Program-made: the position numbers and the translations under genes
Shown here: one piece after another, positions 33,314 through 53,850 of the stretch
Position numbering within the stretch: position 1 is the first letter of the stretch
Layout: each line of letters opens with the position of its first letter
The notes under the pieces: model-generated
Databases searched by the model: none
Told to the model about the DNA's origin: nothing
What the model saw: the letters and a program-made list of their open reading frames with translations, nothing else
From: Streptomyces sp. XD-27
GTDB lineage: Bacteria; Actinomycetota; Actinomycetes; Streptomycetales; Streptomycetaceae
Assembly: GCF_030553055.1 (NCBI RefSeq)
Contig: NZ_CP130713.1
Location: 1,922,001 to 1,986,000, forward strand
Reading direction: 5' to 3'
Length of the DNA stretch: 64,000 nucleotides

Positions 33314-34723
33314 ATGTTCCAGAACGCCGACGACGCTCGGAAGTTCATCAAGGACAACGACGTCAAGTTCATCGACGTCCGGTTCTGCGACCTTCCCGGT
33401 GTCATGCAGCACTTCACAGTCCCGGTGGAGTCGTTCGACCCGGACGAGGAGCTGGCGTTCGACGGCTCGTCCATCCGCGGCTTCCAGGCGATCCACGAGT
33501 CCGACATGGCGCTCCGCGCGGACCTGTCGACGGCCCGTCTGGACCCGTTCCGCCAGGAGAAGCACCTCAACATCAACTTCTTCATCCACGACCCGATCAC
33601 GGGCGAGCAGTACAGCCGTGACCCGCGGAACATCGCGAAGAAGGCCGAGGCGTACCTCGCGTCCACCGGCATCGCGGACACCGCGTACTTCGGTCCGGAG
33701 GCGGAGTTCTACGTCTTCGACAGCGTGCGCTTCCAGACCAGCGCGAACGAGGGCTTCTACCACATCGACTCCGAGGCCGGCGCCTGGAACACCGGCGCGC
33801 GGGAGGACAACCGCGGCTACAAGGTCCGCTACAAGGGCGGTTACTTCCCGGCCCCGCCGGTCGACCACTTCGCCGACCTGCGCGCCGAGATCTCCCTGGA
33901 GCTGAACAAGGCCGGCCTGCAGGTCGAGCGCCAGCACCACGAGGTGGGCACGGCGGGCCAGGCGGAGATCAACTACAAGTTCAACACCCTGCTGGCCGCC
34001 GCCGACGACCTGATGCTCTTCAAGTACATCGTGAAGAACGTCGCCTGGCGCAACGGCAAGACCGCGACCTTCATGCCGAAGCCGATCTTCGGTGACAACG
34101 GCTCGGGCATGCACGTCCACCAGTCCCTCTGGTCGAACGGCGACCCGCTGTTCTACGACGAGCAGGGCTACGCGGGCCTGTCGGACACCGCCCGCTACTA
34201 CATCGGCGGCATCCTCAAGCACGCCCCCTCGCTCCTGGCCTTCACCAACCCGACGGTGAACTCCTACCACCGCCTGGTCCCCGGCTTCGAGGCCCCGGTC
34301 AACCTGGTGTACTCGCAGCGCAACCGCTCGGCCGCGATGCGTATCCCGATCACCGGCTCCAACCCGAAGGCCAAGCGCGTCGAGTTCCGCGCCCCGGACC
34401 CGTCCTCCAACCCGTACCTGGCCTTCTCGGCCCTCCTCCTCGCGGGCCTGGACGGCATCAAGAACAAGATCGAGCCGGCCGAGCCGATCGACAAGGACCT
34501 CTACGAGCTCGCCCCCGAAGAGCACGCCGGCGTCCCCCAGGTCCCGACCTCCCTCCCGGCCGTCCTGGACGCCCTGGAGGAGGACAACGAGTACCTGCAG
34601 GCGGGCGGCGTCTTCACCACGGACCTGATCGAGACCTGGATCGACTACAAGCGCTCGAACGAGATCGCCCCGATCCAGCTCCGCCCGCACCCGCACGAGT
34701 TCGAGCTGTACTTCGACATCTAA
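33314..34723 (+). CDS. glnA: Glutamine synthetase type I
   Basis: A 469-residue GSI-beta enzyme making glutamine from glutamate, ammonia and ATP. Motifs: [47 protein letters not shown], the ATP-binding [28 protein letters not shown], and the adenylylation site Tyr in [18 protein letters not shown] precedes the ATG at 33314. The final 20 bases (ELYFDI-stop) are the left attachment repeat of the integrated element. The gene is intact, but its native terminator now lies at 53865. Confidence 0.98.
34704..34723 (+). repeat. attL: 20-bp core repeat inside glnA
   Basis: AGCTGTACTTCGACATCTAA forms the last codons and stop of glnA and is repeated exactly at 53831-53850. Integration at a 3' end that restores the gene is typical of tyrosine-recombinase elements. 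Confidence 0.92.
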
Positions 34724-34763
34724 AGAGCGCGGTCGGGTGACCTGGGCGGAAGCCCTGGAAACA

Positions 34764-34776
34764 GGCTGTGACCTGC
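34764..34776 (+). repeat. Left terminal inverted 13-mer
   Basis: GGCTGTGACCTGC here has an exact reverse complement at 53811-53823, next to attR. Probably a recombinase or excisionase binding site. Confidence 0.6.
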
Positions 34777-34826
34777 GAAAACTCTTCTCAGCAGTTCTCG
34801 CTGATCGCCCTTGCTTTCCACCCCCT

Positions 34827-34846
34827 TGTGCACCCCGTGTGCACCG
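34827..34846 (+). repeat. Left paired TGTGCACC site
   Basis: Two TGTGCACC words spaced 11 bases apart (TGTGCACCNNNTGTGCACCG). The same arrangement occurs at the right end (53766-53785) in the same orientation. A candidate arm-type binding site. Confidence 0.65.
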
Positions 34847-34881
34847 CCCGGCCAATTCTCTGACTTGATGTCAGGAATGAC

Positions 34882-34923
34882 AGCGAAGGCCACTACCCGG
34901 CATCCGGGGTAGTGGCCTTCGCT
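34882..34923 (+). terminator. Element-borne terminator downstream of glnA
   Basis: AGCGAAGGCCACTACCC (34882-34898) pairs perfectly with 34907-34923 across 8 bases. It resembles the displaced native glnA terminator at 53865 (shared GCGAAGGCC...AC arm), so the element may provide a replacement. It lies in a 463-base stretch after glnA (34724-35186) that has no gene but holds the element's end sites. A 25-base imperfect direct repeat (GCAGTTCTCGCTG core at 34791 and 35051) is also there. Confidence 0.8.
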
Positions 34924-35186
34924 GCTAGATCCACTCCGAGACGAGTACCTTGCTCATCGACCACCGCAAGAGGATCAAATGACGCGAGGTGGGGTCTGAG
35001 CTGCGGCTTTGCCGCGAAGCCCCTGCGGGCGAGGGCAAACTATGCTCGGCAGTTCTCGCTGGTCCGCAGTGTTTTTCGGTGCGTTGCGTTGTACCTGAAT
35101 GTGCCCGCTGGGGGCGTCCAGGGCGGATGGCCGCCCGACCCCTGGCCACGACCGGCTATAGCTTCGGGCGCATAGCCCACCGGGCA

Positions 35187-35807
35187 CTACGGGCAGGATT
35201 CCTCGAACTTCACGGCCGTCAGAGTGACAGGCTGGCCTGTCAGGTTCGCCCCCGCTTGCGGCTCCTGGCCACAGACCTTCCAGTTCGACTCGACCAAGAT
35301 GTTCCGGTCTTGACCGGAGGCGTCTTTAACCGTGAGGCTCGTCGAGGGATCCAGCGCTTCGCGTGCGACCGTCACCGACTTCCCTTGGAAGTCCGGCATC
35401 TTCGCGCCAGCCTTCCGCTGCTCAGTGCTGTCCGTGGCCGGGCAGTTCTCCTCAAGCTTCACAGCGCCGAGGTCGATTTGCACATCTGTCGGCTGCTGCC
35501 CGAGCTTAGGCTTCTGGAAACAGACCTTCCAGTTGCGATCGAGGATCTGGTTCCGCCCCCGGCCGAGCGAGTCGTGCGACGTAAGCACTGAGAAGCCAGC
35601 AGCCTGGGCGGCGTCCTGAGCACTCTGCAACCCTTTGCCCACTAGATTGGGCAGCTCAGCCGTCCTCGCCTTTTCAGTGGGGCTGGGCGCACCGGGGCTC
35701 TTGGTCTCGGTCTTCTCTGGGGTGCCATTGGAGTCGTCACCTCCGCATGCGGTGAGCGAGAGAAGCACAACGACACTGATGACGGCGGTGGCGGCGCGGC
35801 TTCGCAT
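35187..35807 (-). CDS. Lipoprotein with two PASTA domains
   Basis: A 206-residue exported protein. The N-terminal signal peptide ends with lipobox LTAC (MRSRAATAVISVVVLLSLTAC), so it is anchored to the outer face of the membrane. After a charged linker two PASTA-like modules follow: LPNLVGKGLQSAQDAAQAAG and MPDFQGKSVTVAREAL, each ending in a NWKVC...ENCP/EESCP pattern with two cysteines. PASTA modules normally belong to the outside part of kinases and bind peptidoglycan or beta-lactams. Here they are detached and near a kinase gene (37342) in the same element. Confidence 0.87.
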   Translation of the reverse strand: MRSRAATAVISVVVLLSLTACGGDDSNGTPEKTETKSPGAPSPTEKARTAELPNLVGKGLQSAQDAAQAAGFSVLTSHDSLGRGRNQILDRNWKVCFQKPKLGQQPTDVQIDLGAVKLEENCPATDSTEQRKAGAKMPDFQGKSVTVAREALDPSTSLTVKDASGQDRNILVESNWKVCGQEPQAGANLTGQPVTLTAVKFEESCP

Positions 35808-35952
35808 GGAGTGATAGTTGCAATGCCGACGTGCGCCCTGGATACATACACAGCCGTACGTGTCTGATTCGTTACATAGCGTTCGCTACCCAGGGGGAGT
35901 CCAGCCTGAACGCCCTGGCTGGCCCGTCGTGGATGCCCATACGGTGACGCCC

Positions 35953-36382: not shown

Positions 36383-36492
36383 CCGCACCCAAGCGGAGCA
36401 CTCCGCCCTCCGCCTGACTCCAGCTTGGAGAGGTCACAGTCGGTACGGTGCCCACCATGGCTCCGCTGCTACGGTGAACGCCCCCCTGGCGA

Positions 36493-37143
36493 TCAGTTCA
36501 CAGCGGCACTCTCCAGCACCAGATCAACCACCGGCGGTTCGCCCCGTTCCGCGGACTCGGCGATGCCGACGAGGAAAGCCGAACGACTACGGTCCACCGC
36601 GATGAGAGTCAGGCGAAGGTGGCCTGTGGCCTCCTCACAGCCAGGCTTCACTGCCACCGTGTGCGCCGACCGACCACTCACCTTCGTCGCCCGGGACTCC
36701 ACGATCGTCGAGCTTCCGTCGTGGCAGAAGATCTCCGCGTTCGTCCGGGCCTTCTGCTCCGCCTCCCGCTTGAGGGCGTGCTCCGGTACGGCCCCGTACC
36801 GCCCAGCGAGAACCATTCCGCCTCCCTCACCGCCCAGATGCTTCCCGGCAAGCGAGGAGGTGTAGTGGTCGCTCGGTTCGCCCTTGCGGTGCCTCCAGCC
36901 CTCAGGTATCGCGTACGAGACTCCGGCAGCCTCGTCCGTCACCCGCGGCCGCCCTGCCAACGGCGCGCTGTCCTCGTCACGCATCAGCAACCACCCGCCG
37001 ACGAGCACGAGCGCCAACACCGCCACCACACCAGCCACCGCCCCACGCCGCCGCGGCCGCCCGGGTGCAACCGGCGACGGAGGCGGATCCCCAACTGCGC
37101 TGGGCGAATGCGGCGGCGGGCCAGCAGGAGATGGCATCGTCAT
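36493..37143 (-). CDS. Membrane-anchored protein with extracytoplasmic domain
   Basis: A protein of about 216 residues with a Pro-rich cytoplasmic N-terminus (MTMPSPAGPPPHSPSA), a basic stop-transfer RPRRRG, one transmembrane helix (AVAGVVAVLALVLVGGWLLM) and an outside domain starting VTDEAAGVSYAIPEGWRH. Two cysteines (EIFCHDG, KPGCEEA) may pair. Such one-helix proteins often accompany Ser/Thr kinase genes in Streptomyces. It lies about 200 bases downstream of the kinase on the same strand. ATG at 37143 is preferred over an upstream start at 37227. Function is unknown. Confidence 0.75.
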   Translation of the reverse strand: MTMPSPAGPPPHSPSAVGDPPPSPVAPGRPRRRGAVAGVVAVLALVLVGGWLLMRDEDSAPLAGRPRVTDEAAGVSYAIPEGWRHRKGEPSDHYTSSLAGKHLGGEGGGMVLAGRYGAVPEHALKREAEQKARTNAEIFCHDGSSTIVESRATKVSGRSAHTVAVKPGCEEATGHLRLTLIAVDRSRSAFLVGIAESAERGEPPVVDLVLESAAVN

Positions 37144-37341
37144 GCCCCTAGCATCCTGACCTCGTCCGCCCCGGTCCTGAGCACTCCTACTCAGACCGCT
37201 ACTTAGCTTCACCCATCGGTGGAGCATCTGAATGTTCCGAGTTTTGCGCGCTCCTCACCCCGGACAGGAGCCACGGTGACGGTCCAGGCTGAACGTGGCC
37301 GACTGGTGGCCGCCCGCGTGTGGCATGCCTGCGTTTACCAG

Positions 37342-39081
37342 TTACTTCCAAGTGAAACCATCGCACGCAATGCTTACGTAGTCGCGGGGGCTCTTCACGT
37401 GCATGAACTGCACCGTCCAGTCGCCCGGGTCGTTGCTCAGGGGAATGCCTTCGTCCGCGACCTTCTTCCCCTTGAACCAGTCGGTGAAGTCGTCCGGGTA
37501 GGTCAGCTGCGCCTCGCCGGGTGAACCGGGAAGGTCATATAGATTGATGGGTTTGCTGGTGTAGCCCACATTTAGACTCTGCTGAGCGGCTCCGCCACCG
37601 AAGTCAAAGGGCTTCCCGGTATCCGCGTCGATCTCGTGCGGGGGTTTGACAGCGACGGACACGTAGTACGTCCTGGCTGTCTCCACAGGCGGGTACTTAT
37701 CCCGGAAGGTGATGTACACCCTGCGGGAATTCGGGTCCGGCTCGACAGAGGTAAGCAGATCGCCTCCGTCAAACCGCTCCTCAGGCGGCAGGTTGCATTT
37801 CCCTCCCGTCGCCTCGGCTGGGTCAGCGGTCCAGTAATCGCGCGAGATCTTCACGTCGCCGTCGATATGAGCTGGTGGGCTCTTCTTCTTCGGCGTGTTG
37901 GTGGACTCGCCCGTCGGGCTCGTCGCAGTCGGCGGCTTCCTGTCGTCGCCTTTCCTTGCTGCGCCTTGCCCGCCACGATCGTCATCGGCCAGCCCCTGGA
38001 CGAGGAGCACCGCGACCACACCTAGCGCGGCAGCACCGAGCCCAGCCGATGTACCCCACAGCCATATGCGCCGCTTCGGGGCCCCTGGTGCGGACACCTG
38101 CGTCGGGGTGTAGGGGTACAGCGGGGGCGCCGACGACAGACCGGTCTGGGTGACGGCATCAGCCGACCCGAAGCCGGGAGCCGTCGGTGGTCTGCCTTCG
38201 GATTGCGATGCTGACGGAATCTGGGGTATTGGTTCGGCAAGTGCAACGAGGGCGGCGTAGGTAACGTCCTCTGCCAAGGCTGACCGCACAGAGCAGCGTG
38301 CAACGACGTCTTGCAGCCCTGGCCGCGCAGTCGGGTCTTTAGCCACACACGCCTGGATCAGCTCCGCAAGCGGCGCCTCCAGACCGGCCACGTCAATGTC
38401 CTCGTGAACCGCGCGGTAGCTGACGCCAGCTGCCTCGCCGCTGCCGAACGGAGGCCGCCCAGTAGCGGCGTATGCCATGGTGGCGCCGAGTGCGAAGACG
38501 TCCGCCGCCGGCCCTACCTCGTTACGCAGCAGCACTTCAGGGGCAGTGAAACCAGGCGTTCCCGGCGCATATCCCGTCTCGGTAAGGGCGGCCTGCCCGA
38601 TACCGCGCGCGATACCGAAGTCGATGAGCTGAGGGCCCTGGGCCGAGAGGATCACGTTCTGCGGCTTGAGGTCCCGATGAGTAACGCCATACGCGTGAAC
38701 CGCCGCGAGCCCCTCCGCCAAAGCGGCGAACACACTGCGACAGGCTTCCACCGGCAACGGGCCCCGCATGCCGACCGCCTTGCTCAGGGTCGGGCCCGAC
38801 ACATACTCGGTTGCCAGCCAGTAAGGGGCCACATCCAGGGATGCGTCGATCAGGCTTGCGGTGTAGGCACTGCGCACCGCCCGCACCGTCTCAACCTCAC
38901 GCCGGAACCGGGCGAGCGCGCCGGGGTGGTCGATGATCTCGTCCCGGATCACCTTGATCGCCACCAGGCGACCACCCGGGGAACGGCCGAGATACACCTG
39001 CCCCATGCCGCCCGCTCCCAGGCGCCCCATCAGGACGTAATTTCCTATGCGTTCAGGATCATGAGGTCGGAGAGCGTCCAT
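37342..39081 (-). CDS. Ser/Thr protein kinase with extracytoplasmic domain
   Basis: A 579-residue Hanks-type kinase. P-loop LGAGGMGQVYLGRSPGG, catalytic lysine in VAIKVI, HRDLKPQN, DFG in LIDFGIARG and APEVLL are all intact (roughly residues 10-270). One transmembrane helix (IWLWGTSAGLGAAALGVVAVLL) near residue 345 leads to an outside domain of about 210 residues without PASTA repeats (ISRDYWTADPAEATGGKCNL, DDFTDWFKGKKV). ATG at 39081 has AGGA eight bases upstream. The separate PASTA lipoprotein at 35187 could act as its sensor partner (inference). Confidence 0.93.
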   Translation of the reverse strand: MDALRPHDPERIGNYVLMGRLGAGGMGQVYLGRSPGGRLVAIKVIRDEIIDHPGALARFRREVETVRAVRSAYTASLIDASLDVAPYWLATEYVSGPTLSKAVGMRGPLPVEACRSVFAALAEGLAAVHAYGVTHRDLKPQNVILSAQGPQLIDFGIARGIGQAALTETGYAPGTPGFTAPEVLLRNEVGPAADVFALGATMAYAATGRPPFGSGEAAGVSYRAVHEDIDVAGLEAPLAELIQACVAKDPTARPGLQDVVARCSVRSALAEDVTYAALVALAEPIPQIPSASQSEGRPPTAPGFGSADAVTQTGLSSAPPLYPYTPTQVSAPGAPKRRIWLWGTSAGLGAAALGVVAVLLVQGLADDDRGGQGAARKGDDRKPPTATSPTGESTNTPKKKSPPAHIDGDVKISRDYWTADPAEATGGKCNLPPEERFDGGDLLTSVEPDPNSRRVYITFRDKYPPVETARTYYVSVAVKPPHEIDADTGKPFDFGGGAAQQSLNVGYTSKPINLYDLPGSPGEAQLTYPDDFTDWFKGKKVADEGIPLSNDPGDWTVQFMHVKSPRDYVSIACDGFTWK

Positions 39082-39254
39082 GCGACCGATCCTAAGCGGT
39101 CGTTTCTGACGGCTGACCATGCTCTTCAACAGGTCGTGGCGGCGCCTTGCCGAGCGCCTGTTGCCGGATGGCTGAGGGTCCTGTTTCGGCGGGTGGTGTC
39201 GCCGACAGAGGACATTGGTAACGCGAACGACGCCTCCACGCAGCGGAGCCGCAG

Positions 39255-39821
39255 TCACGCCCCGTCATACACCCAATCCCGGCCGGACTGCCGGTACTCC
39301 TCCACGGGGATCGGGGCGACCCCGGTTCGCATGCGGGCGGTGTACAGCAGCCCGTCGAGGTGGTCGATCTCGTGGTGGACGAGGCGGGCGAGGCCGCGTT
39401 CGTACGCGGTGGTCACGGTGTCGCCGGTCAGGGCCGTGGTCTCCACCGTGATCTTCAGGGGGCGGGGTACGAGGCCGCGGACGTCGAAGAAGCTGAGGCA
39501 ACCCTCGTACTGCTCGTCCGTCTCGTCGGAGCGTGCGGTGATCCGCGGGTTGAGCAGGATGATGGCGGGGGCGTCGCCGGGTGGCTGGACGACGGCGGCG
39601 GCGCGTCCGATGCCGGTCTGGGGGGCCGCGATGCCCATGCCCTTGGCGAAGGGGTGGACCTGGCCGATCCGCTCCATGGCGGCGAACAGCTCGTCCGTGA
39701 TGCGCTCGGCCTGGTCGCGCTCGGCGGGCAGGTCGAAGGCGCGGGCCGGTTCGGCGAGGATGCCGGCGCCGTGCTGGACGACGCCGAGGTCTCGCATCTG
39801 CTGGCTGGGCCGCACGTCCAT
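39255..39821 (-). CDS. def: Peptide deformylase (accessory copy)
   Basis: A 188-residue metallo-deformylase that removes formyl from N-terminal methionine. All three motifs are present: GMGIAAPQTG, YEGCLSFFDVRG and LVHHEIDHLDG (HExxH-type metal site), so it should be active. Its ATG at 39821 overlaps the TGA of the regulator gene upstream, so both proteins are made together. A cell normally has a chromosomal def, so this is an extra copy carried as cargo. It may confer resistance to deformylase inhibitors or act on a special substrate; the sequence does not decide. Confidence 0.93.
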   Translation of the reverse strand: MDVRPSQQMRDLGVVQHGAGILAEPARAFDLPAERDQAERITDELFAAMERIGQVHPFAKGMGIAAPQTGIGRAAAVVQPPGDAPAIILLNPRITARSDETDEQYEGCLSFFDVRGLVPRPLKITVETTALTGDTVTTAYERGLARLVHHEIDHLDGLLYTARMRTGVAPIPVEEYRQSGRDWVYDGA

Positions 39822-40804
39822 CACATGAACTCCCCTTGATCCGTGTTGCGTTCGGGCCGTGCCCGGAACCGCCACTCCAGACGGTACCGAGCGTGTAGGG
39901 CGGGCGTGGTCGTGATCCACGTGAATTGCCGGAGCTCACCGTCGTCACTGCGTACGGGCGGGGTCCGCAGCGGGGAGGCTTCGGCGGTCATGGAAGTCTC
40001 GGTGCCCCACACGACCGGGTCGAGGGCTGCGGGGAAGGCGAGCTGGACTTCGAGTTGCTCGGTGGGCAGGCGTACCGCCCGCTGGAACCAATGGCCCCAC
40101 TTGTCGTCGCCGACGGTGTAGGCGTACTCGATCCACACGGACTCGCCTGGGTAGAGCGGGAAGCGGCCGTGTTCGTTGTCGAACAGCAGCCAGACTTCCT
40201 TGAAGGCGTCGCGGTCGTGCTTGGCCTGCCAGTGCATCGTCTCGCCCCGGCAGGTGGCGGTGAGGTCGAGTTCGCCCCAGGTCAGCGGGTGGGCGCGGTA
40301 GTGGGCGTTGGACCGCTCGGGGTCGCCTGGGTAGCGGTCGACGGAGATGCGGATCAGGTAGCGGGTCACCGGCTCGGTACCGGTGTTCCGCAGCAGCCGC
40401 CGCATGGTGAGCCGGTAGGAACGGCCGTCGTACTGGAGGCGGGCAGCATCGTGTTCGACCACGAGGGCGGAGCCGGTCGCGTACGGCTGCTCGGGCCTGC
40501 GCGGGGTCGGCGGGGCTACGGGAGGACGCCGGACCCGCGCCTCCCTGGCCTTGGCTTGCTCGTAGTCGCACCAGCGTCTCCAGATCGCCTTCCCGGCGTT
40601 CAGGGCATCGTCGGCGAGCCGTGCGAACTCCTCGCTGGGCTTGTGGCGGCCGGACTCCATGTGGCTGACGTACGACGGGTCGAAGCCCATGGCCCGCGCC
40701 AACGCGCGCTTGGACATGCCGCGCACTTCCCGCCACCGCGCCACCTCGGCGGCGAAGTGCTCGGCCGCCTGCTCGACGGTGATCTCCTCGTCCTGCGTGC
40801 CCAT
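39821..40804 (-). CDS. XRE-type helix-turn-helix protein with beta-rich C-terminal domain
   Basis: A 327-residue protein. A Cro/CI-type HTH occupies residues 10-75 (VARWREVRGMSKRALARAMG, FDPSYVSHMESGRHKPS). A C-terminal domain of about 220 residues is rich in aromatics and beta strands (DGRSYRLTMRRLLRNTG, YPGESVWIEYAYTVGDDKW, GHWFQRAVRLPTEQLEVQL) and is not a familiar DUF5753 domain. It is translationally coupled to the deformylase and divergent from the glycosyltransferase operon, which it may control. ATG at 40804 is chosen; 40825 is an alternative. Confidence 0.85.
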   Translation of the reverse strand: MGTQDEEITVEQAAEHFAAEVARWREVRGMSKRALARAMGFDPSYVSHMESGRHKPSEEFARLADDALNAGKAIWRRWCDYEQAKAREARVRRPPVAPPTPRRPEQPYATGSALVVEHDAARLQYDGRSYRLTMRRLLRNTGTEPVTRYLIRISVDRYPGDPERSNAHYRAHPLTWGELDLTATCRGETMHWQAKHDRDAFKEVWLLFDNEHGRFPLYPGESVWIEYAYTVGDDKWGHWFQRAVRLPTEQLEVQLAFPAALDPVVWGTETSMTAEASPLRTPPVRSDDGELRQFTWITTTPALHARYRLEWRFRARPERNTDQGEFM

Positions 40805-40951
40805 CGAAGCCCCGCCCCGCGTCATCGTTGGTGAGCATGAATGAACCGTGAGTGATCCCAGTTCATCATCCCGTCACGGCCAGCGTCGCCGTTTTCCTTC
40901 CCTCACCGACCCGGATCGACCCGTCCGGGCAGATGAGGGAGGCGACGCGCC

Positions 40952-44899: not shown

Positions 44900-44971
44900 C
44901 CCATCCAGATCGGCCAGATCGGCCAGAATGGGCACCTGGGCACCTGTGCACCGGCAGGAAGGGAACCGAAC

Positions 44972-45507
44972 GTGAACACCGCCGCACCGCTGGCCGTGCT
45001 GCTGGTCGGCATCACCGGCTCCGGCAAGACGACCGTCGCCCAGGCCCTGGCCGAGCGCAGCATGATCCGCCTCTCCGTGGACGAGGAGGTCCACCGCCTC
45101 CACGGCCGCTACGGCATCGACTACCCCGAGCACACCTACTTCGAGCGCGAACGTCCCGTGGTCGAGGCGATCCGGGAACGGTTCGTCAAGGAGCTGGAAG
45201 CCGGACACGACGTCGTTCTGGATCACGGGCTGTGGCGCCGTAACGAGCGTGACGCCTGGAGGCGGGCCGCCCGCGAAGCGGGCGGCCACCCCTCGTGATC
45301 TACCTACCGGTCGACCGGGAGGAACTGTTGCGGCGCCTCGCCGAACGCAACCAGCGCGAGCACGCCAACGCCCTCACTGTCACGCCGGAAGCCCTCGACG
45401 ACTTCTTCGCCCGCTTCGACCCTCCGGAAGACGACGAAGAAGTGATCGTCTACACCGGAGATCTGGGAAGGCTCGTGACGGCTCTGTCCGCGACCAGGCA
45501 GCGCTGA
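44972..45507 (+). pseudogene. P-loop kinase (AAA_33/zeta-like), frameshifted
   Basis: Two reading frames rebuild one P-loop kinase of about 175 residues. Frame one (44972-45298) has LLVGITGSGKTTVAQALAE, RLSVDEEV, YFERERPVVEAI and DVVLDHGLWRRNERDAWR. It stops at GHPS; the next frame (GTG at 45295) continues IYLPVDREELLRRLAERNQ and DDFFARFDPPED. Adding one C to the C run at 45289-45292 would give an unbroken HPLVIYLPV. The stop and GTG overlap (GTGA), so two coupled chains are conceivable. GGAAGGGA precedes the GTG. It ends the glycosyltransferase operon. Confidence 0.78.
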
Positions 45508-45522
45508 GCAGACCCGTGATCG

Positions 45523-47199
45523 CTATCGGCGTCGGCCGCGTTCCGCAGACCGTTCGCCCACCGTCGTAGGCGCAGGCTGCGGTGCCTGCGCGATGGGCCG
45601 GGTGCTGCGGACGCTTTGCCTGCGTGCTGCCTGTGCGCGCCTGTTCGGCTGGGCGGTGATGCGCCAGTTGAGGACTTCGGCGGGGCGCTCGGCTGTGTCG
45701 AGTTCTCGTCGGGCGGCTACTTCGGCCAGGAGGTGGCGGGGGTTGCGGCCGGCGGTTTCGGCGCGGGCGAGGGTGGTGGTCAAGGCGGGCCAGGCCGGGT
45801 CGGCGAGGATGCGGTCCGCCTGGTCGGGGATGGTGGCGCGGAGATCCTGCTCGAAGCGGTGGGCAGTTGTGGCGCGCGGGGCGCGGCGGGCGAGGTCCGC
45901 CAAGACCGGCTCGGCGGCCTGGCGGTAGTTGGCTTGGAGGTGGCGGACGGCCTGTTCGGCTGCGGCTGCCTGCTGTTCGTGGCCGTGCTGTGCGTGCCAG
46001 TGGGCGGCGGCGCGGGCCAGGTGGAGGGCGGCGAAGACCAGGGCGATGGCGAGTCCGCCCGGAAGGTTGGGGGCGTAGGTGAGTTCCTTGGCGGCTTGGC
46101 ACAGCTCGGTGGCGGCTTGGTGGTCGGCCCGGATCGCTGAGCGGCGTGCCCGGTTGAACGCCTGGGCCGCTGCTTGCAGCTCGGCCTGGTGCGGGCTGTG
46201 TGTGGCGCGGGCCAGGTTGTGCAGGGTGTCGCCGAAGGCTTCCAGGTGGCCCTGGGCCACGGCGTCGTCGCCCGCATCGAGAACGGTGCGGGCCGTGTGC
46301 ACGGCGGATTCGGTTCGGCGCCACGAGTCGGCCGGGTCCGCCACCGGTTGCGGACGGTCGGCCACCTCCTGGGTGGGGAGGCGTTCGCGTAGGCGGATGT
46401 AGGACAGGTCGGGGGCCAGGCTGGATCCGCCATACCAGATGGTGTCGCCGGGTGCGGCCAGGCTGTAGCCCGTCACCTCACCGCTCTCGGGACCGATGCG
46501 AGGCTTGACCTGGATACCGAGCGAGCCCAGGACGGTGAAGTAGTCGTCCATACTCCGCACAGCGGCGGCGACCGCGTACGCCTGCTCGCGCAGCCACTCC
46601 CGCGTGGCCTTCTCCTGACCCTGACGTTCGACCTTGGCGCGTTCGGCGCCGGTGGGCGTCTTGGGCTCGGTGAGGTCACCTGACTTGAGGCGGCGCAGCC
46701 CGAACTCGGCCTCGATCTTGCGGCACTCGGCCTGGGCGCGCTGCCCGTCGCGGTTCGTGCGCGGACGGCGGCCGTCGGCACGGACGGTGGTGGCCATGAT
46801 GTGGATGTGGTCGTCCGCGTGGCGTACCGCGATCCACCGGCACGCCTTCTCGTCGCCCTCGGGCGCGATGCCGGTGGCCGCCACGACGCGGCGGGCGACC
46901 TCGGCCCACTCGGCATCGGTCAGGTAGCGGTCACCAGGAGCGGTGCGCACCGGACAGTGCCACACGTGCTGGGGCGGCTTCTTGCCGCCCAGCTCGCGGG
47001 TGCGCAGGTCGACGTGGTGGTCCAGGCGCTTGGCGAGCTGGGTGTACGTGGCGTTAGCGTCGCGGCCGGGGTCGGGGGCGCCGGTCATGTCCCAGGCGGC
47101 GACGATGTGTGGGTCGGTGTGCTCGTCCCGACGGCCAGGACCGAAGAGGTAGGCGACCAGCCCGCGGGTGTCGGAGCCGGTGGAGACATCAGGCACCAT
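45523..47199 (-). CDS. Relaxase (MobA/VirD2-like)
   Basis: A 558-residue relaxase that should nick at oriT and lead the strand in transfer. The N-terminal domain contains GLVAYLFGPGRRDEHTDPH, HHVDLRTRELG, HVWHCPVRTAPGDRYLTD and the HUH-type metal motif AVRHADDHIHIMATTVRADG. The catalytic Tyr is probably in NATYTQLAKR or ATGYSLA-type runs but is uncertain. The C-terminal half is helical and Ala/Gln/Arg-rich. It overlaps mobC by 11 bases. Relaxase-based transfer is uncommon in Streptomyces, where double-stranded TraB transfer dominates. Confidence 0.88.
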   Translation of the reverse strand: MVPDVSTGSDTRGLVAYLFGPGRRDEHTDPHIVAAWDMTGAPDPGRDANATYTQLAKRLDHHVDLRTRELGGKKPPQHVWHCPVRTAPGDRYLTDAEWAEVARRVVAATGIAPEGDEKACRWIAVRHADDHIHIMATTVRADGRRPRTNRDGQRAQAECRKIEAEFGLRRLKSGDLTEPKTPTGAERAKVERQGQEKATREWLREQAYAVAAAVRSMDDYFTVLGSLGIQVKPRIGPESGEVTGYSLAAPGDTIWYGGSSLAPDLSYIRLRERLPTQEVADRPQPVADPADSWRRTESAVHTARTVLDAGDDAVAQGHLEAFGDTLHNLARATHSPHQAELQAAAQAFNRARRSAIRADHQAATELCQAAKELTYAPNLPGGLAIALVFAALHLARAAAHWHAQHGHEQQAAAAEQAVRHLQANYRQAAEPVLADLARRAPRATTAHRFEQDLRATIPDQADRILADPAWPALTTTLARAETAGRNPRHLLAEVAARRELDTAERPAEVLNWRITAQPNRRAQAARRQSVRSTRPIAQAPQPAPTTVGERSAERGRRR

Positions 47200-47746
47200 G
47201 GCTGGCCCCTTCCGCCAGGAGCTGGTCGATCAGCCCGTAACTGGCCTCGGCGGCCTGCTCGATGCGGTCAAGGAGAACCTCGGCTCGCTCGGGTATCGCG
47301 CCGGAGTGGATGGCGCTCATGATCTGGTTGAGGTTGGTGCCGATCCGGTTCAGCGCCTTGGTGTGTGCCTCGATGGCCTCCACCAGCGGGCGGATCGGGT
47401 CGTCCTCTGGGCTGCCGACCATGCCCGCCTTGCCGAGCGCGACCGCGAGGGCGGCGTCGCCGACGAACCCGGCGAACTTCTGACCGCGCTGCTTGGCTGC
47501 GGCGGTGACGATACGGACGGCGGTCGGGGTGAAGCGGATGGTCTTGTCCTGGTCGCGCTTCTCGCTGGTGCGCTTGCGGTTCATCAGCGCGGGCAGCACC
47601 GGGGCGTCGGGCTCACGCCACGAGGGCTGCTCGACGGGCGGCGCGCTGTCTGCGCTGTCGGTGGACGGCTCATCGTGCGCGGCGACGGAGTCGGCGACGG
47701 GCTGCTCGGCACTGTCGGCGTAGGGCGCGGTGGCGGGCTCGCCCAC
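47189..47746 (-). CDS. mobC: MobC-like mobilization accessory protein
   Basis: A 185-residue protein. An acidic low-complexity N-terminus precedes a basic stretch KRTSEKRDQDKTIRFTPTAV with ribbon-helix-helix character, then the MobC signature AHTKALNRIGTNLNQIMSAI. MobC proteins melt DNA at oriT and help the relaxase. GTG at 47746. The relaxase gene follows with overlap; the 372-base space upstream is the likely oriT. Confidence 0.87.
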   Translation of the reverse strand: MGEPATAPYADSAEQPVADSVAAHDEPSTDSADSAPPVEQPSWREPDAPVLPALMNRKRTSEKRDQDKTIRFTPTAVRIVTAAAKQRGQKFAGFVGDAALAVALGKAGMVGSPEDDPIRPLVEAIEAHTKALNRIGTNLNQIMSAIHSGAIPERAEVLLDRIEQAAEASYGLIDQLLAEGASHGA

Positions 47747-48118: not shown

Positions 48119-49792
48119 TCAGAGAGTTCGCTGCGGCCCGGTGGGGCCACCGGGCGGACCGATGGGCAGCGAACCCGCCGGGGCGGCGGGCGGCTTGCCC
48201 TGGGCCGGGCGGGCAGGCGCGACGCCGTGTGCGGGCTCGGGTGCCGCCTCGACGAGGTCGGGGCAGTTACGGGCCCAGGCATCGAGGAACCGGTTGCGCA
48301 TGTACGCCTTGGCCTGCCTGCCCTTGTCGAACCGATAGTTGGCCGAGCCGATGTTGAAGTCCCGCAGCAGGTTGCCCAGGTGGTAGGCGTTCAGCCCCTT
48401 GGTGCCGTACTCCGCCCACGGGGCGTCGGCGTCCTGGATCAGGGCGGCGACCAGGTCCTGGGTGGCCAGGGCCTCGGGATTGTCCGCCTGCCCGAAGATC
48501 CGGTGGATGTCGCGCAGCAGCCGCGTCTTCAGGCTGCTCTGCTCGTCCTGGACCGCCTCGTGCCGGGTCATCGCCACGCACGCGGCGCGAGCGCGTGCGG
48601 GCCAGTGACCGCCAGCCAGGTCAGCAATGATGACCAGCGGCTCCCAGGTGTCCGCCGCCCGGTCCTCCACCGGCATCTGCGGCACCATGCGAGCAGCCTG
48701 ACCGCCCAGCGGAGTCAGCCAGGCGGCCAGCCGGTCGCACAGCGCGTGGAGTTCGGGCACGGAGTACCGCGACCGGAAGGGGGTGGCCTTCTCGCCCATC
48801 TTGCGCTTCTGCATCCGCAGCACGACCGCCCGATCCATGATCGTGTCCGGCAGGTCGCCGATCCCCGCGATCGCGGCCATGGCGAAAGTCGGGTACGGGG
48901 TCGGCTTGTGTTCCGGCCCGGAGATGCACCAGGCGGGCCGGTTGCGCTGGTGGTCCGCATTGAGCAGGCCGCGCAGGTCCTCCTTGTCGCCCGCCTTGGG
49001 GCCGAAGATGGTGTCGGCCTCGTCCACCAGCAGAGTGGGCGGGTTCTTGCCGATGACGCGGAAGATGACCGCCGGTGAGGTGTTCACCGTCATCATCGGC
49101 TGATGCACGGTCTCGTGCAGCACGTCCAGGACGCGGGACTTGCCGCAGCCCTTCGTCGGCCTCACCACCGCCAGGCGCGGCGCGTGCTGCAGAGCGGTCT
49201 GGATGTGGGGCACCGCCGCCCACAAGGTGAGCGCGGTCAGCGCCTCCTCGCTCGGCAGCACCACATACTTGCCGATCACCGCCCGGAACTCATCCAGCAG
49301 GACGGCTCCCTCACCGGAAGTCTGCTCTGCGTGGTCCGCCGGTCCGGACGGCTCTCCCGGACCGGTCCGCGGGCCTTGGTCCGGTCCGTCAACCTGCTCC
49401 GGTGGCTGGAGGCTGGTCCGCTCACCGGCAGGGATGCCAGTCTGATCCCGGTCGTGCGGACCGGGATCCGCCGGCTGGTCCGTGCCCCTGCGCACCAGCG
49501 GACCAGCGGGAGCGGACCGCTTCACCTCATGCGGACCATCCTGGTCCGCAGCATGTGATCCGATCCGTACGCCGCCGACCTGTGCTTCCTCCACAAGTGT
49601 GGGTATCCGGTCAGGCGCCGGGATTCCGGTCAGTGCGCCTTGGGCCGACCGGTCCGCGACTGCCGCACGCTGCGGACCAGCCTGCGGACCAGAGCTGTCC
49701 GGCGCGTGCGGTCCGGCGGACCGGTCGTCGTCGTGGTCCGCATCGCGCGGACCAAACCCTTGGCCGGGCACCGCCACCGGCGGCCAGACCAC
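48119..49792 (-). CDS. DUF3631 ATPase, candidate replication protein
   Basis: A 557-residue protein. Residues 1-165 are low-complexity (Gly/Pro/Asp/Arg) and coincide with a DNA repeat array. The rest is a DUF3631 P-loop ATPase: LAVVRPTKGCGKSRVLDVLH (Walker A), LLVDEADTIFG (Walker B), DTIMDRAVVLRMQKRK, and a C-terminal winged-helix-like AYHLGNLLRDFNIGSANYRF. These proteins sit beside excisionase and integrase in actinomycete elements, suggesting a replication or helicase role. The start is uncertain: GTG at 49792 is used, but the frame stays open upstream (from about 49905) reading VYGGHYVLAYFECIPRLRRL without an ATG, and an ATG with a good binding site at 49863 is one frame off. Confidence 0.83.
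   Translation of the reverse strand: MVWPPVAVPGQGFGPRDADHDDDRSAGPHAPDSSGPQAGPQRAAVADRSAQGALTGIPAPDRIPTLVEEAQVGGVRIGSHAADQDGPHEVKRSAPAGPLVRRGTDQPADPGPHDRDQTGIPAGERTSLQPPEQVDGPDQGPRTGPGEPSGPADHAEQTSGEGAVLLDEFRAVIGKYVVLPSEEALTALTLWAAVPHIQTALQHAPRLAVVRPTKGCGKSRVLDVLHETVHQPMMTVNTSPAVIFRVIGKNPPTLLVDEADTIFGPKAGDKEDLRGLLNADHQRNRPAWCISGPEHKPTPYPTFAMAAIAGIGDLPDTIMDRAVVLRMQKRKMGEKATPFRSRYSVPELHALCDRLAAWLTPLGGQAARMVPQMPVEDRAADTWEPLVIIADLAGGHWPARARAACVAMTRHEAVQDEQSSLKTRLLRDIHRIFGQADNPEALATQDLVAALIQDADAPWAEYGTKGLNAYHLGNLLRDFNIGSANYRFDKGRQAKAYMRNRFLDAWARNCPDLVEAAPEPAHGVAPARPAQGKPPAAPAGSLPIGPPGGPTGPQRTL
49333..49753. repeat. Array of 14 GCGGACC/GGTCCGC heptamers inside the DUF3631 gene
   Basis: Exact heptamers start at 49333, 49364, 49415, 49456, 49498, 49512, 49531, 49543, 49651, 49672, 49684, 49716, 49735 and 49747, in both orientations. 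Several form inverted pairs, such as TGCGGACCA/TGGTCCGCA at 49530-49550. They are read in different codon phases (Ala-Asp, Gly-Pro, Arg-Ser-Ala), so the constraint is on DNA and not on protein. Confidence 0.85.
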
Positions 49793-49972: not shown

Positions 49973-50242
49973 TCACCGAGGGCCGCTTCGCTGCCCGCGC
50001 CAGGTGCGGGGACAGGCCGTGAGGCCGTACGACGTCTGGGCGTCCAGCCATGCGTCGACCTCCTGCCAGCGGTAGCGCAGGTGGCGGCCGACCTTGTGGA
50101 CCTGGGGGCCGGTACGGCGGTGCCGCCACTGGTAGAGGGTCTTCACCGGCACACCGAGGTAGGCGGCAACCTCCTCCGGCGTGGCGAGCGGATCGCGGCC
50201 AGCGCGATCGGACGCGGTGGCACTGCGGAGGGTTCGGGGCAT
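49973..50242 (-). CDS. Excisionase-like helix-turn-helix protein
   Basis: An 89-residue MerR/AlpA-type DNA-binding protein: LATPEEVAAYLGVPVKTLYQ, WRHRRTGPQVHKVGRHLRYR, then EVDAWL. Such proteins act as recombination directionality factors in actinomycete integrative elements. AAGGAG lies before the ATG at 50242. It lies upstream of the DUF3631 gene on the same strand. Confidence 0.9.
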   Translation of the reverse strand: MPRTLRSATASDRAGRDPLATPEEVAAYLGVPVKTLYQWRHRRTGPQVHKVGRHLRYRWQEVDAWLDAQTSYGLTACPRTWRGQRSGPR

Positions 50243-50648
50243 GGGACTCCTTCACGGGGCATGGGTCGGGGACATGATGGCCACAGGTTTCGCGACGCAT
50301 CCAGCGGCATTTTGCGAGAAATACACGCCCACCAAACGGCGCCTCGCCGATTGGACCCATACCGTAAAAGGCGATCCCCGGTTGCCGAAGTCGCGCCGGA
50401 ATTCGAGGGGAATCTGCCAGCTTTCCACCAGACCATCTCGACCACGTGCGGCACACCCGCCGAGGCCAAAGTACGAGGCCAGCACCCGTAGGGGCGCGTG
50501 CGTCGGGAGCCCCGGGACGCAGCGGCGTGGCACCGCACCACGGAAATTCGACTTCGCCGAACCGCCCACGCGAGCCCCTCAAATAGCCAGCGTCAGCAAG
50601 TTTTCTAGACCTCTTGAGTAAACCCTTGCCGCGGCCGCCAATTTCGAG

Positions 50649-50664
50649 TGACAGCTATCTGTCA
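50649..50664. promoter_or_regulatory. Inverted repeat over the start of the XRE gene
   Basis: TGACAG-CTAT-CTGTCA is a perfect inverted repeat whose last base is the A of the ATG at 50664. Phage-type repressors often bind such sites to control themselves. It ends the 421-base gap (50243-50663) between divergent xis-like and XRE genes, which otherwise holds only an AT-rich promoter-like stretch near 50580-50650. Confidence 0.55.
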
Positions 50665-50980
50665 TGGCAACCCGACCCGTAAAAATAGGCCCCGCCGGAA
50701 TCCACACCGCGCGCAACATCGAGCGCCTGCGACTGCTGCGCGGAATCTCCCAGCTCAGCCTCGCCGAACGCTGCACCGCCCTCGGCCGCCCCTGTCCAAC
50801 ACCGCCCTCAGCCGCACCGAACGCGCCCGCCACCACTGCGACGTCGACGACCTCGTCGCCATCGCCGCCGCCCTCGGCGTACCTCCGACTGCCCTACTGC
50901 CCCAGTGGACGGCTCACAGCGTCACCTCCCACTCCGCGGCCCAGACCCTCAACCCCACCCAGGGGGCCCTTCTTGGCTGA
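50664..50980 (+). pseudogene. XRE-family regulator, frameshifted
   Basis: The first frame gives RNIERLRLLRGISQLSLAER and then loses homology. The second frame continues LSNTALSRTERARHHCDVDD and LVAIAAALGVPPTALL, the second half of a Cro/CI-type HTH protein. One extra C in the CCCC run near 50793-50796 would restore a protein of about 105 residues. Its stop overlaps the TTG start of the integrase gene. It is the usual small regulator before the integrase in these elements. Confidence 0.75.
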
Positions 50981-52024
50981 GCCGTATGACCGCTGGCACA
51001 AGAAGCGGCCTCAGCCCGGCGAGGAGGTATGCAAGGCCCACGGCAAGGTGCCGTCCCGTGAACGGACGTACCACCAGTACGAATCCCGCGTCCGCAACCA
51101 CATCGTCGGGCCGCTGGGGGATCTCAAGCTGCGGCAGGTCAAGCCTTCCACGGTCCAGACCTGGATCAAGCGCCGGCTACAGGTGCTCGACGACACGACC
51201 GTCGGCCTGATCTTCACCCACCTGTCGTCGATCCTCGCCATGGCGGTGGACGACGACCTGATCCCGAAGAACCCGTGCGAGACCGGGTCGGTCAAGCGCG
51301 TGAAGCCCAGGCGGTCAAGAAGCCGGCCAAGGACGTGCCGCTCTCCTGAGAGCAGACGGACGACCTGCGCAAGCACCTGGACGACCGGTACCAGGCCACG
51401 GTCGACTGCGGCCGTGGGCTCGGGGTGCGGCAGGGCGAGATATTCGGCTTCAGCCCGGATGACATGGACTGGTCGGATGACGACAAGACCGTCCACATCT
51501 GCCGCCAGATCACGCATCACCGAGGCACGCTCGTCTTCGCGCCGCCCAAGGGCGGCACCAAGGACGATCCGAAGGACCGCTACGTCCCTCTCGACGAGGA
51601 CTTGGCGAGGCTGCTGCGCGAGCACATGCGGGAGTTCCCTCCGGTTGAGGTCACGCTGCCGTGGCTGGAGAAGGACGGCGAGCTGGTCACCGTGCGCCTC
51701 ATGTTCACCACACGCGAGCGCAAGGCGCTCAACAAGAACTACTTCAACTCCCTCTGGAAGGCGGCCCTTGAGGCGATCGGCGCCATCGAGGCGATGAACG
51801 ACAAGCCGACCGGCAAGGGCCGCAGGTGGGAGCCCTGCCGGGACAAGATGATGCACGCCCTTCGGCACCTCTTCGCCTCGGAGGCGATCAACGAGGGTGT
51901 AGACGTCTACACGCTCGCCGACCTGCTCGGTCACGAGGATCCAGCGTTCACGCTGCGCCGGTACGTGCATCGCGTCAAGGGCGCGGTGGAGAAGGCTCGA
52001 AAGGCGATCGGCAAGCGCTACTAG
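50973..52024 (+). pseudogene. int: Tyrosine integrase, disrupted
   Basis: A TTG at 50973 with AGGGGG upstream starts LAEPYDRWHKKRPQPGEEVC. This joins directly to RERTYHQYESRVRNHIVGPL, so the usual 70 or so residues of the arm-binding part seem deleted. The core-binding region (KPSTVQTWIKRRLQVLDDTT, FTHLSSILAMAVDDDLIPKN) is present. Near 51308 one base is missing (VKP then EAVKKPAKDVPLS in the next frame), and that frame has a TGA at 51347. The catalytic half is intact: first Arg in GLGVRQGEIFGF, MHALRHLFASEA (HxLR), LLGHEDPAFTLRRYVH (His and Tyr). The gene should be inactive. Confidence 0.85.
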
Positions 52025-52095
52025 CGATCTGTTGGAGGTAGGCAGGTCGCCGCTGCCGGGGCGACGACATACCTACGGTAAGTTGCAGCCCTACA

Positions 52096-53622
52096 CTACG
52101 CACCGGAAGAGTCTTCATCATCGGGCGGGACGTCACCGGGGATGCTGACGCCCTCGGCACTTCCCTGTACCAGGTCCAGGGCTGGCCGGTAGAGAAAAGG
52201 TACCCAGAACTGCATCTGCGCACGTTTCTCGAAGAACCCGATGTCGACCAGCCGGAGCGCTGCTGCCTTCGCCTCGTCCTGTGGGCACTCCCAGATCGCA
52301 GCGAGGCTTTGTACGCTGTGATTGGTCTTGTGGCCCTCCAGCGCCGACATGAACCGCTTGAGATCCGGGTGCTCAGCATAGAGCGTCTTGGTCAGCCGGG
52401 TCTCGGAGACCGCGGGCAGTGCGCCTTTGAGAGAGCTACCGTCAAACAGGACATCGCCAACCGGCTCGTCTTCGCCAACCTCCTGACGTCGCAGCTGGAC
52501 GCCACGAGCCTCGGTGAGCAGGTGGATGAGCTCGCGCGGCGCAGTGCGCTTGGTGCCGTCACTAGTCCGGGACAGGCACCAGTCGAATGTCTTTGGTTTG
52601 TTCGGGCCGTTCTCGACCTGCTCGGGATACACCCTTTGGAAGAGGTCCTCCTGCCCGGCAACCGAAGCGACCCCGTCCTGCGTCGCGCCGTAGAAGTCAC
52701 GCAGCGTCTTGTTGCGGACCAAGCGCTGTGTGACCAGTTGTAGAAGGGCCGCCCTATCCCAACGCAGCGTCAGCTCCCGCGTGATGTGGCTGGCCTCACG
52801 GAATCCACTAGCGGTGATGGCCTTCCAGATGTCGCTGCGCAGGAAGATCTTCAGCCTGATCCGGTCGATGTTCCCAAGGTCCAGGTAGACCTTGAACAGC
52901 GCGCGCAGCGCCTGCTGCTCCAGGTGCGGCTTGCCGGCGAATGCCACATCCAGCCGGTCCAGCAGTAGCCACAACTGCAGCCCCTCGTCTTCTAGGGCCT
53001 GTCCCGCCGTGGCCAGTAGCTCGTCGACGTGCATCGCCCCCTTGGAGCGCTGCACGTCGTCCGGCTCGGTGAACCGGATGCGGGTGCCGAGGTCTACGAC
53101 CCCGGCTACCGAGACGCTTGGCTCAATCTCGCTGAACATCCTGCGCACGTAGGCCGCAGCATTAGCTAGCTTCTGCCGGAGCGACACATTGCGTCCCGGA
53201 ACCATCCCGGCGTCTGTTAGCGTCCGGACTACCAACTTGGCCGCAGGGCCCCGCAGGTCGTAATCTGCGAAGGTGTCGGCGATCACCGCCAAGAAGTAAA
53301 CCTTCCACAGCCCGACGAACTGATCCTCATCGATGACGGCATTGGCCTCAAGTGTGGCGAACGCAGGCGAGCCCTGGGGTGATTCCGCCGGGCTGATCAG
53401 GATGTTGCGATCGAACAGCTGCGACTCGCGGGCTGCGAGGGTGGCGTAGATCGCACTCTTACCTGAGCCCTTGGGTCCGTAGACAATGTCAACCTTGTCC
53501 TGCCAGACCTGCTTCCACTGCTCGGTCTCCACGAAATACGAGGCCAGCTCGCCAGCCTCCTCCTCCGCGACCCGGGCACCGAAGGTCAGCTCCTTGAGTA
53601 CCGTCTCCTTGATGGCGATCAC
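52096..53622 (-). CDS. P-loop ATPase, Sll1717-like
   Basis: A 508-residue single-gene ATPase. Walker A is DIVYGPKGSGKSAIYATLAA near residue 48; LQLWLLLDRLDVAF is a Walker-B/sensor-like strand and KIFLRSDIWKA follows as in STAND-type ATPases. The C-terminal part (TAPRELIHLLTEARGVQLRR, LAAIWECPQDEAKAAALRLV) looks winged-helix-like. It resembles the ATPases annotated as Sll1717 family, of unknown function and sometimes suspected in phage defence. It sits between the integrase and attR, reads inward, and has lower GC and more AT-ending codons than its neighbours, suggesting recent acquisition. Confidence 0.8.
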   Translation of the reverse strand: MIAIKETVLKELTFGARVAEEEAGELASYFVETEQWKQVWQDKVDIVYGPKGSGKSAIYATLAARESQLFDRNILISPAESPQGSPAFATLEANAVIDEDQFVGLWKVYFLAVIADTFADYDLRGPAAKLVVRTLTDAGMVPGRNVSLRQKLANAAAYVRRMFSEIEPSVSVAGVVDLGTRIRFTEPDDVQRSKGAMHVDELLATAGQALEDEGLQLWLLLDRLDVAFAGKPHLEQQALRALFKVYLDLGNIDRIRLKIFLRSDIWKAITASGFREASHITRELTLRWDRAALLQLVTQRLVRNKTLRDFYGATQDGVASVAGQEDLFQRVYPEQVENGPNKPKTFDWCLSRTSDGTKRTAPRELIHLLTEARGVQLRRQEVGEDEPVGDVLFDGSSLKGALPAVSETRLTKTLYAEHPDLKRFMSALEGHKTNHSVQSLAAIWECPQDEAKAAALRLVDIGFFEKRAQMQFWVPFLYRPALDLVQGSAEGVSIPGDVPPDDEDSSGA

Positions 53623-53765
53623 CCCTCAGCGGCGGCTGTTGCTCCTGGAATGCTACCGGCCGGGCTCAACGCAACACCGTTAGTTGCTAAGACGTCGTCC
53701 CCCTTGGGCGTGGCGGCCAGCACCGCGCCCGAATGGGGTGCACCAGCAAGTCCCTCCCGGCGCGA

Positions 53766-53785
53766 TGTGCACCGACTGTGCACCG
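53766..53785 (+). repeat. Right paired TGTGCACC site
   Basis: TGTGCACCGACTGTGCACCG has the same 11-base spacing as the left-end site at 34827, in the same orientation. Confidence 0.65.
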
Positions 53786-53810
53786 GGCCACCCGTCAGCG
53801 ACACGTCCAT

Positions 53811-53823
53811 GCAGGTCACAGCC
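53811..53823 (-). repeat. Right terminal inverted 13-mer
   Basis: GCAGGTCACAGCC is the exact reverse complement of the left copy at 34764-34776; it lies seven bases before attR. Confidence 0.6.
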
Positions 53824-53830
53824 TTCCCCT

Positions 53831-53850
53831 AGCTGTACTTCGACATCTAA
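53831..53850 (+). repeat. attR: second copy of the glnA 3' end
   Basis: Exact 20-mer copy of the last glnA bases including TAA, followed by the displaced glnA terminator. No coding frame of glnA precedes it. Confidence 0.92.

Follow-up and report, generated by a model that had tools for sequence, protein, structure and literature searches.

A candidate decayed integrative mobilizable element behind glnA in Streptomyces sp. XD-27, at a gene end apparently shared by several integrase groups

Introduction

How can 19 kb of DNA come to lie directly behind an intact glutamine synthetase gene, with what looks like that gene's own terminator on the far side? The question is raised by glnA of Streptomyces sp. 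XD-27, in a stretch of 64,000 nucleotides (contig NZ_CP130713.1, positions 1,922,001 to 1,986,000; hereafter the window, whose own numbering is used). By comparison with related loci, positions 34724-53850 very probably derive by decay from an integrative mobilizable element (IME), of a family whose tyrosine integrase would recombine a core common to the element and the end of glnA; excision, transfer and termination are predicted from the sequence. Genomes and loci are cited by our G and L numbers.

Insertion at the 3′ end of glnA

The final codons of glnA and their TAA form a 20-mer, AGCTGTACTTCGACATCTAA, found at 34704-34723 and again at 53831-53850 without a single mismatch and without one base of extension on either side. 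The insert thus delimited measures 19,127 bp. A degenerate form of the 20-mer has exactly two matches in the single-contig genome of 7,549,390 bases, and the exact repeat claimed by an initial annotation of the window stands. Twenty bases make a short repeat, and it might lie by chance beside a genomic island that arrived in some other way. When the last 60 bp of glnA were compared with the 29 kb downstream, the longest exact match was 20 bases, against a maximum of 14 in 30 first-order shuffles; moreover, inserts in other genomes are flanked by the same core, which in other loci adjoins the integrase gene (see below). On the shuffles and the comparative data, we rejected a chance repeat as extremely improbable. 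A tRNA or tmRNA as the true attachment site was also rejected, none being present in the window: no tRNA gene was found in its 64,000 bases, and no known RNA family reached the gathering threshold in 34500-54200. Between the cores the G+C content per kb is 0.63-0.74, locally below the surroundings.

Right after the second core follows a strong hairpin (53865-53903); the surrounding stretch is 79% identical over 56 bp to the sequence directly behind glnA in G035, where the gene leads straight into a hairpin region like that 3′ of the right attachment site (attR) of the window. That the native terminator resumes there, as first described, is therefore well founded. Of 61 genomes searched, XD-27 included, 60 gave a DNA match to the 3′ part of glnA, and the last 424 bases of the gene are 94-96% identical to those of the five nearest relatives. 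We examined the best 30 glnA loci (29 besides the window) over ca. 1.5 kb behind the gene (408 bases in G017). None of the 29 contained sequence of the window element beyond short matches, and the same 19 kb in all relatives, which would have spoken against insertion, was not seen among them. Sequence like the left end of the element followed glnA in three (G034, G028 and G023) and was missing from 26. In 25 of these 26 the best hairpin (loop of up to 12 bases) begins at a distance of 7 to 53 bases from the stop, and none was found in the 408 bases behind glnA of G017. Four of the 26 (G006, G030, G013 and G002) have a CCGTCGGCCGTG hairpin resembling that at the left end of type 3 elements (see below), which makes it uncertain whether these 3′ regions are native. 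The DNA of the right flank was tried as another anchor for the census and abandoned as too poorly conserved (20 of the 61 genomes including the own one, with all non-own matches short). Empty and otherwise occupied sites in relatives support the view that the element inserted site-specifically at the glnA 3′ end and restored the last codons of the gene. The accompanying remark that every insertion stays linked to a nitrogen-assimilation gene is true by construction; no exploitation of the linkage came to light, no test having been aimed at it.

A hairpin in the left arm

With the insertion, the native terminator has moved by 19 kb, and the gene that opens the element points towards glnA; for these reasons, a left-arm hairpin (34881-34924) is probably a replacement terminator of glnA, its function being predicted. 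The initial annotation had recognized the displaced native hairpin and missed this one, which the element carries itself and which is conserved in its family. A search with the left arm gave matches at E<=0.01 in 45 of the 392 genomes of the genus, 20 of them at E<1e-8. Each of these 20 has glnA immediately 5′ of the arm; an additional copy in G166 had no glnA in the 1.46 kb examined. We compared 26 arms, i.e., those of the 20 genomes, the second arms of G166, G082 and G114, the arms of G034 and G028 and a shortened arm of G106; left out are a second arm of G308, which is shortened, and the weak matches of G322 and G387. In 23 of the 26 the start of the best hairpin lies between +147 and +166, and in 25 the best stem scores above the 95% level (33.5) of 300 random windows of 300 bases, the top one reaching 52. 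Across the 23 aligned arms, 351 of 365 ungapped cells are paired and there are 49 two-sided changes. With a sliding partner at most 199 cells were paired, and 500 shuffles gave at most 322 paired cells and 24 two-sided changes. Both Catenulispora loci of the family have a hairpin at +160 as well, in unrelated sequence.

Several observations weigh against a terminator brought in by the element. The hairpin of the window has no T-run and was not listed by the terminator scan. In three of the 26 arms the best hairpin is not at the usual place, being at +226 in G182, at +75 in G106 and formed by another stem in G327. The left ends of type 1 elements, another group at this site, show a strong hairpin in only four of eight cases, starting at +8 to +25. 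Besides, 12 of the 20 left-arm genomes showed neither an integrase of the window type or type 1 nor a second core in the stretch examined (6.7 kb in G187, ca. 18 kb in the others), of which G124 and G327 have kept other element genes. Because of these 12, some arms could be old 3′ regions of glnA and not element ends; they would fit arms that outlived their elements, or longer or different elements. Applied to the window, the left arm and its hairpin would be the old native Streptomyces glnA 3′ region with its original terminator, and the element would start further in, a possibility with which the resemblance of the arm hairpins to those of other Streptomyces glnA 3′ regions also agrees. However, arms are also found away from glnA, behind a later core, in G114 and G082 (in shortened form in G308), and a shortened one follows attR of a type 1 element in G106. 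The sequence after attR differs between the window and G215, that of the window matching the post-glnA sequence of G035, and the Catenulispora hairpin keeps its distance without any relation in sequence. We regard a native left arm as unlikely and favor a hairpin that belongs to the element.

Insertion may then have proceeded as follows. A circular element would cross over within the core and supply the final codons and stop of glnA, the old end of the gene and its terminator being pushed 19 kb away; the hairpin of the left arm would stop glnA transcription ahead of the element genes, of which the nearest faces glnA. The element would thereby swap the whole 3′ end of its target gene. The arms have other features in common: the GTGACCTGC motif of the left arm has an inverted partner near attR, and its TGTGCACC repeats recur in the right arm. 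GGCTGTGACCTGC at 34764-34776, with its inverted match at 53811-53823, is a possible arm site of the integrase or excisionase.

Decay of the integrase and class of the element

The insert had originally been called a mobilizable element. A relaxase and direct repeats speak for this name, but three lesions (71 missing residues, a frameshift and a stop) have made the integrase gene a pseudogene, whereas its homologues in G215 and G114 form one open frame, and no PF02534 coupling protein was found in the genome. For these two reasons, "decayed mobilizable element" is the better name. The catalytic residue set of tyrosine recombinases is R, K, H, R, H, Y. The G215 integrase matches PF00589 (E 3.1e-14), the columns corresponding to these residues are invariant in the alignment, and the window copy retains all six despite the breaks elsewhere. 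Since its integrase is a pseudogene, the window element is probably no longer mobile. The relaxase, DUF3631 protein and excisionase would have served excision, replication and transfer via helper machinery; with the integrase and the preceding regulator gene broken, no excision would be expected unless an integrase acted in trans.

It could be argued that the element is still active, the lesions being sequencing errors or another integrase of the cell taking over, and the frames of xis and the relaxase are indeed open. Still, a gap of 71 residues is atypical of sequencing error and is accompanied by the frameshift, the stop and another frameshift in the gene next to it. At E<=1e-30 the genome has a single further match, 46% identical and ca. 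156 kb away, and in the relative G082 the 5′ part of the same integrase gene is gone. Present activity therefore seems very unlikely, and we retain the reading of a decayed element.

As for its class, among the features that characterize IMEs we found direct repeats and a relaxase, a broken instead of a functional integrase, and no conjugation apparatus of its own among the element open reading frames scanned against Pfam. Specifically, no scanned frame matched a coupling protein, VirB4 or FtsK in Pfam, some small frames being unscanned. The whole genome yielded no VirD4-type coupling protein (PF02534), in a search that did not extend to other helpers, FtsK-type ones included. Compared with actinomycete integrative and conjugative elements (AICEs), xis and a DUF3631 protein are present, the integrase is broken and the scanned frames contain no FtsK/TraB-type translocase.

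The same family in other genomes

We call the integrase group of the window type 2. A search with the C-terminal piece of the integrase found a relative at E<=1e-30 in 228 of the 392 genomes. Among the matches listed, only G114, G215 and G082 reach 82% identity besides the window, and all three integrases belong to elements that start right after glnA. The G215 element has two cores 18.3 kb apart and the same arms, core and open integrase frame, with glnA on one side; its integrase is identical to that of Streptomyces albospinus NZ_BMRP01000004.1. The G082 element, also behind glnA, aligns with the window element over 10,453 bases at 94%, and its integrase has lost the 5′ part. Another left arm follows the second core in G082 and a further core in G114; these are tandem arrays.

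In named genomes we found 13 loci with a type 2 integrase, in Streptomyces, Streptacidiphilus and Catenulispora. A core follows the integrase in 10 of them, with 0 to 2 mismatches in nine (L089, L091, L092, L093, L095, L096, L098, L099 and L101, of which L096 and L101 match the integrase over part of its length only) and with a 5-base gap in L090. In the two Catenulispora loci (L097 and L100) glnA itself adjoins the integrase, and L094 lies at the end of its contig. The window relaxase is 86% identical to that of L089 and 84% to that of L090.

Other occupants of the glnA site

The proposal that the 3′ end of glnA is an element site was right as to the site; it is not peculiar to the window element, however, since several integrase groups share it. 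By their positions, at least three groups of tyrosine integrases use this gene end: type 2, a type of AICE-like elements and a type of AICE-like or capsid-gene-bearing elements. In seven of the 392 genomes (G000, G027, G106, G216, G224, G248 and G405) the motif occurs twice on the same strand no more than 20 kb apart; G339 and G402, whose copies lie on different contigs or strands, are not counted. Six of these seven have an integrase that is convergent to glnA and that we call type 1. A search for it at E<=1e-90 gave seven of the 392 genomes, those six and G270; all of these integrases adjoin glnA and all have a second core, and that of G027 contains an in-frame stop. Between the glnA cores of G248 (L031) and G106 (L032) lie elements of 9-10 kb with an integrase, an AAA_25 ATPase and a phage major capsid protein, and the glnA-borne element of G224 encodes FtsK and Prim-Pol domains.

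Type 3 integrases adjoin glnA or lie within 1.6 kb of it in eight genomes (G020, G267, G325, G376, G227, G354, G349 and G086). A second core (15-mer with one mismatch) follows 7.3 to 20.2 kb further on in G020, G325, G267 and G354 and was not found within 20 kb in G227; the stretches examined were 4.7 kb in G376, where the contig ends, and 3.7 kb in G349, and that of G086 was not extended. The G020 element has an FtsK domain, hence its AICE-like look.

Some further loci deserve mention. G058, from another family (L039), has two copies of the glnA end (38-base match) around a remnant of 2.5 kb, which matches only the C-terminal part of a type 1 integrase. G093 (L164, L186-L187) has a second glutamine-synthetase-like gene whose 3′ end bears a cousin of type 3; of 66 bases compared at this end, 65 are duplicated 13.4 kb downstream. 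In G381 (L199) a type-3-like integrase adjoins the same gene, which we provisionally call glnA2 on account of its C-terminus. G010 (L041, G010:C2:1303000-1308000) contains, far from its main glnA, a partial second copy of the glnA 3′ part (335 bases, 89% identity) that ends in CAA instead of TAA. Three related integrase genes occur within ca. 10 kb in G090 (L190), two of them on the same strand and from the sister group of type 2 (see below). Close phage relatives were sought for two of the integrases and rejected, as all matches are below 60% identity, the 15 listed for each being at 25-31%.

Integrase phylogeny

A single origin of glnA targeting was rejected. A tree of 67 integrases requires at least five changes of the glnA label, four of them forced by the starred branches, a count to be read with the labels in mind, since for the rows labelled "other" mostly 1.5-kb flanks were checked and some could be mislabelled. 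The tree leaves out L101, L045 and L054 (too short), L094 (contig end), identical rows, the broken integrase of the window and six rows of genomes already present (L044, L055, L057, L058, L063 and L064). Three groups consist of glnA users throughout, namely, a type 2 clade of 12 rows, a type 1 clade of seven and a type 3 core of seven. Type 1 is far from the remaining integrases, and types 2 and 3 may share one glnA-using ancestor (support 86/70). G095 and G226, of the wider type 3 clade, are not at glnA within the few kb examined. Integrase similarity as a predictor of the site was likewise rejected: in the sister group of type 2 (51-55% to the G215 integrase), a core lies beside the gene in one of eight loci checked (G175), and the other seven have no adjacent core within the stretches fetched.

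Gene content of the element

The features of the locus are collected in Table 1. In the glycosyltransferase cluster, the open reading frame at 41956-42810 had no match in the profile searches. The kinase at 44972-45507, split over its two overlapping frames, is possibly another broken gene. Peptide deformylase, XRE regulator and two glycosyltransferases (39255-44042) are cargo that the window has in common with G082 (L076-L077) and G124 (L145), each time behind glnA and a left arm. The Sll1717-family ATPase (52096-53622) has weak similarity to models of anti-phage proteins and had no match in the related loci searched.

Table 1. Features of the glnA locus and of the inserted element (window coordinates)
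Feature	Position	Strand	Evidence or remark
glnA, glutamine synthetase, 469 aa, intact	33314..34723	+	PF00120 E 8.6e-138, PF03951; 3′ end is the attachment site
Left attachment site (attL) core, final 20 bases of glnA with stop codon	34704..34723	+	exact repeat; block also duplicated around other inserts
Left arm, family-conserved, with GTGACCTGC motif, TGTGCACC repeats and hairpin	34724..34935	+	20/392 genus genomes at E<1e-8, all directly after glnA
GGCTGTGACCTGC, inverted match to 53811-53823	34764..34776	+	similar motifs in both arms of relatives
Terminator-like hairpin, element-borne	34881..34924	+	+158..+201 after the glnA stop; covariation; z -8.8
Cargo: PASTA-domain protein, probably a lipoprotein	35187..35807	-	PF03793 E 9.3e-10
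Cargo: protein without Pfam or NCBIfam match	36493..37227	-	
Cargo: Ser/Thr protein kinase	37342..39258	-	PF00069 E 1.3e-40
Cargo: peptide deformylase homologue	39255..39920	-	PF01327 E 8.9e-31
Cargo: XRE-type regulator	39821..40825	-	PF13560 E 1.2e-13
Cargo: glycosyltransferase cluster	40952..44899 (40952-42109, 42807-44042, 43967-44899)	+	PF13439, PF13692, PF13704
Cargo: zeta-toxin/AAA_33-like kinase, two overlapping frames	44972..45507	+	first frame PF13671 E 1.4e-18
Relaxase, MobA/VirD2-like, open frame of 558 aa	45523..47199	-	PF03432 E 2.1e-9
Possible MobC/NikA-like relaxosome protein	47189..47746	-	weak; PF21983 E 1.3e-4, under its cut-off
DUF3631 protein	48119..49792	-	PF12307 E 6.7e-69
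Excisionase-type helix-turn-helix protein (xis)	49973..50242	-	TIGR01764 above cut-off; phrog_66
XRE-type regulator gene, frameshift near 50790	50634..50902	+	two frames versus one in the G215 homologue
Tyrosine integrase pseudogene	50973..52024	+	71 residues missing versus G215 integrase; frameshift near 51310; stop 51347-51349
Cargo: P-loop ATPase, Sll1717 family	52096..53622	-	NF047389 E 1.6e-52; between integrase and attR
attR core	53831..53850	+	exact repeat; alignment with relatives
Terminator-like hairpin native to glnA, displaced by 19 kb	53865..53903	+	stretch homologous to sequence 3′ of glnA in G035

Discussion

Elements of this kind are known from the ends of other genes. Table 1 of PMC5704250 lists IMEs at the 3′ ends of guaA, rplL, rpmE, rpmG, rpsI, trmE and yicC, which, like the window element, have a tyrosine integrase, direct repeats, a restored gene end, a relaxase of their own and no conjugation apparatus found. 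The table differs in having no glnA and only one actinobacterial IME (ATE-1, at guaA); the word "terminator" does not occur in that paper, and its available part mentions no conserved terminator-like hairpin in a left arm. With AICEs (PMC3218068, PMC9513070, as far as available), the window element has in common the DUF3631 domain, named RepAM (replication) in PMC3218068, the excisionase, the tyrosine integrase (broken in this copy) and the presence of several elements per site. It differs from them by its relaxase and the lack of a detectable FtsK/TraB-type protein, and AICE sites are mostly tRNA genes: the part of PMC9513070 at hand gives 36 tRNA, 14 protein-gene and one intergenic site for Streptomyces elements, and it also reports accretion and different integrases at one site. 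The capsid genes of the G248 and G106 elements liken these two, and not the window element, to the capsid-encoding phage satellites in the available text of PMC10690885. The AICE-like, FtsK-bearing elements of G020 and G224 occupy the same glnA site. Tn7 moves by transposition and not, as is proposed for the window element, by tyrosine recombination at a shared core. What the two have in common is insertion just downstream of a conserved housekeeping gene (glmS for Tn7) that is left unharmed (PMC4046053, available part).

We recognized no report of glnA as an attachment site in the accessible parts of the literature searched, PMC6722414 included, although the gene names in the supplement of PMC9513070 could contain glnA; the available text of PMC11755657 treats glnA as a metabolic gene only. 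The kind of element (an IME) and accretion are already known, and the glnA site was not found described. The interesting part is that several integrase groups meet at one gene end, together with the conserved hairpin of the arm.

A broader view, to which we give as much credence as doubt, is that the ends of glutamine synthetase genes are shared docking ports of actinobacterial mobile DNA, with at least three integrase groups in IMEs, AICE-like and capsid-bearing satellite-like elements at glnA and cousins at a second glutamine-synthetase-like gene; that the elements evolved to replace both the codons and the terminator of their target; and that left-over arms now act as ordinary glnA terminators where the element was lost. 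Since the 3′ part of glnA was matched in 60 of 61 genomes and is used in another order (Catenulispora), the integrases might be of use as tools for integration in a broad range of hosts. From the conserved hairpin one may derive a rule for insertions into protein-gene ends, i.e., to restore the codons and bring a terminator, and the arms of such elements would be a route for the horizontal replacement of the terminator of a core gene.

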